A stretch of 49,718 nucleotides of DNA from an uncultured cyanobacterium (lineage in GTDB: Bacteria; Cyanobacteriota; Cyanobacteriia; CACIAM-69d). The position numbers and the translations under genes were made by a program. The stretch's first letter is position 1. Every line of letters begins with the position of its first letter. Below are positions 12,024 through 13,215 of this stretch, in pieces. The DNA lies in contig CALGDE010000097.1 of NCBI GenBank assembly GCA_937883785.1, positions 1 to 49,718 of the forward strand, in the 5' to 3' direction. The notes under the pieces were generated by a model. That model was not told where the DNA came from, did not search any database, and saw nothing but the letters and a program-made list of their open reading frames with translations.

Positions 12024-12251
12024 TTACTTGGACAACTGGGCGCTGTGAAAAGGATCAAAGGGTTGAGCCGGTTCGCGATCGCCATAATCCGTAGGTGTAC
12101 CGGTGATCACATTTGCCATTTGATCAAAGGAATCCGAATTCCAGTTGCGATTGTGGATGGGCTTGCGTTGTTCACCGCGGAAGTACGCTTGCGTACCAAT
12201 AACCGATGCTGCAACCCAACCAATTGCCAATAATCCTAAAACTAAAGCCAT
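12024..12251 (-). CDS. psb35: photosystem II assembly protein Psb35
   Basis: 75 residues from the ATG at 12251. One N-terminal membrane helix (ALVLGLLAIGWVAASVIG) is followed by GTQAYFRGEQRKPIH and NRNWNSDSF, which I recognise as the Psb35 (Synechocystis Ssl2148) signature. Psb35 is reported to stabilise the CP47 assembly module and its high-light-inducible proteins during photosystem II biogenesis, in the thylakoid membrane. The start is set by the strong site AAAGGAGG about 10 bases upstream; a longer reading from 12278 would put that site inside the gene. An HLR1-like RpaB site lies 35-52 bases upstream of the start and a good terminator lies downstream, so the gene is probably a monocistronic light-responsive unit. 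I am working from memory of the family, so the symbol is likely rather than certain. Confidence 0.72.
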   Translation of the reverse strand: MALVLGLLAIGWVAASVIGTQAYFRGEQRKPIHNRNWNSDSFDQMANVITGTPTDYGDREPAQPFDPFHSAQLSK

Positions 12252-12285
12252 ATTCACATAGCCTCCTTTCTCAATCAATTTCTTT

Positions 12286-12303
12286 CTTGTAACTAATTGT
12301 AAC
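12286..12303 (-). promoter_or_regulatory. HLR1-like RpaB binding site upstream of psb35
   Basis: Read leftward the site is GTTACAATTAGTTACAAG. The HLR1 consensus is two copies of (G/T)TTACA(T/A)(T/A) separated by two bases. This site fits at every position except the final base. The first copy contains TACAAT, a good -10 box, so bound RpaB would overlap the core promoter, as at high-light genes that RpaB represses in low light. The site lies 35-52 bases before the start codon. Confidence 0.65.
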
Positions 12304-12939: not shown

Positions 12940-13215
12940 ATGAAAACTATTTTGCGTACTTTGACCGCAGCCGCTTTGATGGCAGCCCTGGCCGCCTGTG
13001 GTGGTGGCGGCGGCGAAGATGCTCCTGCTGGTGAAGCGTCTCCTGCTGGCGAGGCTGCCCCTGCTGAGTCTCCCGCTGCTGAAGAGCCTGCTGGTGAGGC
13101 GTCTCCCGCTGCTGCTGATGGCGAGGCGGCTCCCAAGGAATCTGCTGAGCCTGAGGCTACCGAATCTGCTGAGCCTGAGGCTACCGAATCTGCTGAGCCT
13201 GAGGCTTCTGAGTAG
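12940..13215 (+). CDS. low-complexity repeat lipoprotein
   Basis: 91 residues from ATG 12940, set by a GAGGAG ribosome-binding site about six bases upstream (a GTG at 12934 would abut that site). The N-terminus MKTILRTLTAAALMAALAAC is a signal peptide with a lipobox ending in Cys20. The rest is almost entirely A, P, E, S and G with no predicted fold. It ends in three near-identical ESAEPEAT units encoded by a 24-base tandem repeat. The mature chain is strongly acidic and probably a flexible spacer on the outer face of the inner membrane or in the outer membrane. I do not recognise a named family. A strong terminator follows, so it is a single-gene unit. Confidence 0.72.
   Translation: MKTILRTLTAAALMAALAACGGGGGEDAPAGEASPAGEAAPAESPAAEEPAGEASPAAADGEAAPKESAEPEATESAEPEATESAEPEASE
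13141..13212 (+). repeat. 24-base tandem repeat in the lipoprotein gene
   Basis: The unit TCTGCTGAGCCTGAGGCT with six further bases repeats exactly at 13141-13164 and 13165-13188, with a third, partly diverged copy at 13189-13212. The period is a multiple of three, so copy-number change would keep the frame. Confidence 0.9.

Follow-up and report, generated by a model that had tools for sequence, protein, structure and literature searches.

A conserved HLR1-type site upstream of a Psb35-related gene in an uncultured cyanobacterium

Described RpaB targets and the site in the window

The published HLR1 consensus is KTTACAWW-N2-KTTACAWW (PMC13421787; PMC11633204). An HLR1 located between -38 and +23 represses, and one at -45 to -66 activates (PMC13421787). 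HLR1/RpaB repression sites are known at hliA/hliB, nblA, and other high-light genes of this kind, and pgr5 (ssr2016) is among the RpaB targets described in Synechocystis (PMC12850537). In the present study, we analysed a stretch of 49,718 nucleotides from an uncultured cyanobacterium (the window) and found an HLR1-type site, GTTACAATTAGTTACAAG, on the minus strand at 12286..12303. Like the sites at hliA/hliB and nblA, it is an 18-bp direct repeat of the type KTTACAWWNNKTTACAWW over a putative core promoter, for which low-light repression would be expected; unlike those sites, its target belongs to an uncharacterised Psb35-related family, NF047380. The mechanism is already known, and the NF047380 target is undescribed in the literature searched. 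No description of HLR1 at the Psb35-related family was found in that literature, which did not include the Synechocystis RpaB regulon list, and a search for Psb35-like/Psb36 work returned unrelated studies only. Synechocystis pgr5 has HLR1 upstream, and several lineages likewise carry pgr5 just ahead of the NF047380 gene under one HLR1. In contrast to these lineages, the NF047380 gene stands alone in the window genome, where the PGR5 model had no match; the same model matched 11 of 96 other cyanobacteria.

Between 12303 and 12286, the minus strand was read directly as GTTACAAT-TA-GTTACAAG, that is, two 8-bp KTTACAWW half-sites with two bases between them. The site agreed with the consensus KTTACAWWNNKTTACAWW at 17 of 18 positions, and the single departure, a G at the last base, recurred in three other loci (L107, L061, and L063). 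The ATG of the downstream gene was located at 12251, leaving 34 bases between the end of the site and the start codon, and a Shine-Dalgarno-like AAGGAGG was read directly at 12260..12266 on the same strand. These readings confirmed the preliminary description, which had reported a site 35-52 bases upstream of the start that fitted the HLR1 rule at all but the final base and contained TACAAT in its first half-site. The two-base spacing given there held for the 8-bp half-sites but not for the TTACA cores, which stand 10 bp apart; for this reason, the pattern TTACANNTTACA misses the site.

To judge the chance level, we counted HLR1 matches in the window and in the 4.84-Mb genome. No other HLR1 with one mismatch or fewer occurred in the whole window, the expectation from dinucleotide shuffles being 0.02 such sites. 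Two exact matches to the 16-base HLR1 core were found in the genome, the window site among them. The other exact core, GTTACAAAGAGTTACATC (L074; G000:C31:6335-6352, minus strand), reaches the start codon of a gene of the PF14251 (DUF4346) family, which is a second candidate RpaB target. A chance match in the window gains some room from the genome-wide count of nine sites at one mismatch or fewer, where about two were expected by extrapolation from the window shuffles, but it is extremely unlikely, because the four other members of the window's own family and dozens of further loci carry the site at a similar position and on the same strand. The evidence from the single genome is good but not decisive, and it is the conservation that decides.

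The Psb35-related gene and its distinction from psb35

The gene at 12024..12251 on the minus strand encodes a 75-aa "photosystem II protein, Psb35-related". The NCBIfam model NF047380 matched residues 1-74 of the product at 118.2 bits, above its curated cut-off of 80. The gene had earlier been named psb35, a name that was close but did not hold: the product reached 13.9 bits against the Psb35 model NF047378, below the curated cut-off of 40, and a genuine psb35 (NF047378) was found elsewhere in the window genome (L001, G000:C103:38661-38792). Like Psb35 (Ssl2148, NF047378), the NF047380 protein is small and has a similar membrane helix, its hydrophobic N-terminal stretch resembling one such helix, whereas Psb35 lacks the conserved GEQxKPIHERNW tail of NF047380. 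The only stretch common to the two families comprised 23 columns over the membrane helix (profile match, 66% probability). Since NF047380 is separate from the Psb35 family, an argument from the cooperation of Psb35 with Hlips is not directly transferable to this gene.

Alignment of the window protein with 21 homologues gave identities of 48-64%. A Pfam match to Cytochrom_B558a was below the cut-off and was disregarded, and no match was obtained among solved structures. Of the 160 cyanobacterial genera sampled, 93 had an NF047380 protein. Among the control genomes, the model had no match in Synechococcus elongatus; the lack of a match in this well-studied organism may explain why the gene was overlooked. 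The window also contains, at 12940-13215 on the plus strand, a small ORF resembling a lipoprotein, with imperfect repeats and a repetitive tail rich in Ala, Glu, and Pro.

Conservation of HLR1 and operon pattern

The preliminary description had proposed aligning the upstream regions of homologues for a conserved HLR1. A protein search yielded 72 loci, a survey of 390 cyanobacterial genomes contributed about 90 others, and removal of near-identical upstream regions left 106 non-redundant homologous loci; redundancy was lowered by upstream similarity alone, and all counts are per locus rather than per independent evolutionary event. Within 150 nt upstream of the gene, 51 of the 106 loci had an HLR1 that departed from the consensus at one position or none, and no such site was present on the reverse strand; control tiles taken from these loci gave 13 hits in 3994 tiles (about 0.3%), and several of these hits stand before linked pgr5/psb34 genes. 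Most of the sites ended 22-39 nt before the start codon, on the sense strand. The window's own family, which comprises the window locus and four others, kept the site throughout. Judged from gene order, the gene was first in its transcript at 82 of the 106 loci, and 54 of these 82 had their own HLR1 within 220 nt at the same tolerance of one mismatch. The site was thus clearly conserved upstream of homologues. A two-mismatch HLR1 was the only one found in 18 of the 82 first-gene loci, and 10 of the 82 had no recognisable HLR1.

The information content was 1.2-2.0 bits at nearly all fixed HLR1 positions and mostly below 0.15 bits in distant flanks, with the qualification that the alignment was anchored on HLR1, so that the motif's own values arise partly by selection and the locus rates are the unbiased measure. 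This difference between site and flanks indicated constraint rather than a lack of divergence. HLR1 was often flanked upstream and downstream by degenerate half-sites, a third and a fourth, that continued the 10-bp spacing (L004, L013, L106, L153, and others).

At 24 loci, the gene was second, after pgr5 (NF049860) or a psb34 paralogue (NF033486), in shared transcripts that were again assigned from gene order. None of these 24 genes had its own HLR1, and in 17 of the 24 loci the HLR1 lay before the leading pgr5 or psb34-like gene. By coordinates, pgr5 was located directly upstream of the NF047380 gene in 5 of the 11 pgr5-bearing genomes (96 searched). Unlike the NF047380 gene, true psb35 (NF047378) had no HLR1 in any of 31 loci, the window genome's own included, and was rejected as an HLR1 target. 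Canonical psb34 had none at one mismatch or fewer in 27 loci, and its candidacy as a general HLR1 gene was likewise rejected. These controls indicated that HLR1 tracks the NF047380 gene and not photosystem II assembly genes generally.

Two forms of psb34 could be told apart in these data. The paralogue starting MYTTxxERGxLNNYA carries HLR1 upstream of the NF047380 gene (L026, L039, L064, L071, L138, and others), and the canonical form (M[RP]YTTEEGGRLNNFA) is without it. A high-light form of Psb34 may exist; a literature search for RpaB and Psb34 together found nothing. The linkage to pgr5, itself an RpaB target in Synechocystis, and to the psb34 paralogue offers a better functional argument than the cooperation of Psb35 with Hlips.

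Overlap with the promoter and the predicted control

The putative -10 box TACAAT lies within the first half-site at 12296..12301 on the minus strand and is supported by the -35/-10 spacing in homologues. Among 65 anchored loci, 29 had a TTGACA-like -35 element 16-19 nt upstream of the TACATT/TATATT hexamer of the first half-site, where 3% was expected (p ~ 1e-25), and the TTGACA box itself stood 17-18 nt upstream of the first half-site. A C-to-T change weakens HLR1 but improves the -10 box. This change, giving TATATT, occurred 16 times in the first half-site versus 3 times in the second (p = 0.001). Both the -35 spacing and this bias indicated that, in homologues, the first half-site also serves as the -10 box. 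The earlier suggestion that HLR1 overlaps a possible -10 box thus gained support from the homologues; in the window, the -35 element was weak (CAAACA at 18 nt), and a simple promoter scan found no promoter. If the first half-site serves as the -10 box, transcription would start in or beside the second half-site, placing HLR1 at about -14 to +4 and within the repression zone of -38 to +23.

Two other explanations bear on this arrangement. The element might be conserved as a core promoter only, TTGACA-N17/18-TACATT followed by an AT-rich region of initiation, and act independently of any regulator. The -35 at the right spacing and the -10 hexamer in the first half-site, both clear in homologues, agree with this explanation, but the second half-site TTTACATA, which lies outside both boxes, was as conserved as the first (0.95-1.00 and 1.7-2.0 bits at positions 11-15). 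The 10-bp repeat also fits HLR1, and the element was missing upstream of true psb35 and canonical psb34. We consider a core promoter without a regulator quite unlikely. A start at some other position, with HLR1 inside the transcribed leader or serving for activation, is very unlikely: the weak -35 in the window would suit such an arrangement, but the 34 bases to the ATG leave no room for an activator at -45 to -66, and a leader would leave the strict spacing of the promoter boxes in homologues unaccounted for.

We also searched the window genome for the regulator. A protein encoded at L199 reached 396 bits against the RpaB model (cut-off 330), indicating that rpaB is present, and among the nine Trans_reg_C proteins of the genome one other, at L201, exceeded the cut-off with 379 bits, so that RpaB has a paralogue in this organism. 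This L201 product, which may resemble SrrA, might replace RpaB or compete with it at the site, as might a different OmpR-type regulator. The number of such proteins in the genome is consistent with this alternative, and SrrA competes with RpaB for phosphorylation in PCC 7942 (FEMS review); nevertheless, RpaB is the established binder of HLR1, and we regard a different or competing binder as unlikely.

Collectively, the Psb35-related gene almost certainly has a conserved and functional HLR1 operator on its promoter, as judged from the sequence comparison. It is likely that this site is an RpaB operator over the core promoter, repressing the gene in low light and allowing its induction in high light. 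Both the binding of RpaB and the direction of repression are predictions. In low or moderate light, RpaB on both half-sites would cover the -10 box and the start site and block RNA polymerase; on transfer to high light, the regulator would leave and the gene would be induced. The gene is probably off in dim light and on in strong light. Where the NF047380 gene is second in the operon, the same logic would apply through the HLR1 that precedes pgr5 or the psb34-like gene at the head of the operon.

The strongest new point is the predicted control common to NF047380, pgr5, and the psb34 paralogue. The protein may have a role in photosystem II or electron-flow acclimation. Through this analysis, an uncharacterised small membrane protein joins the predicted RpaB high-light regulon, and gene order connects it with PGR5 and with a paralogue of Psb34. 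As a tentative interpretation, NF047380 could be an unstudied high-light acclimation protein whose gene underwent several rearrangements, standing by itself or following pgr5 or a high-light psb34 paralogue, without losing RpaB control; it would then mark a conserved module in which the assembly or repair of photosystem II is coupled to cyclic electron flow.
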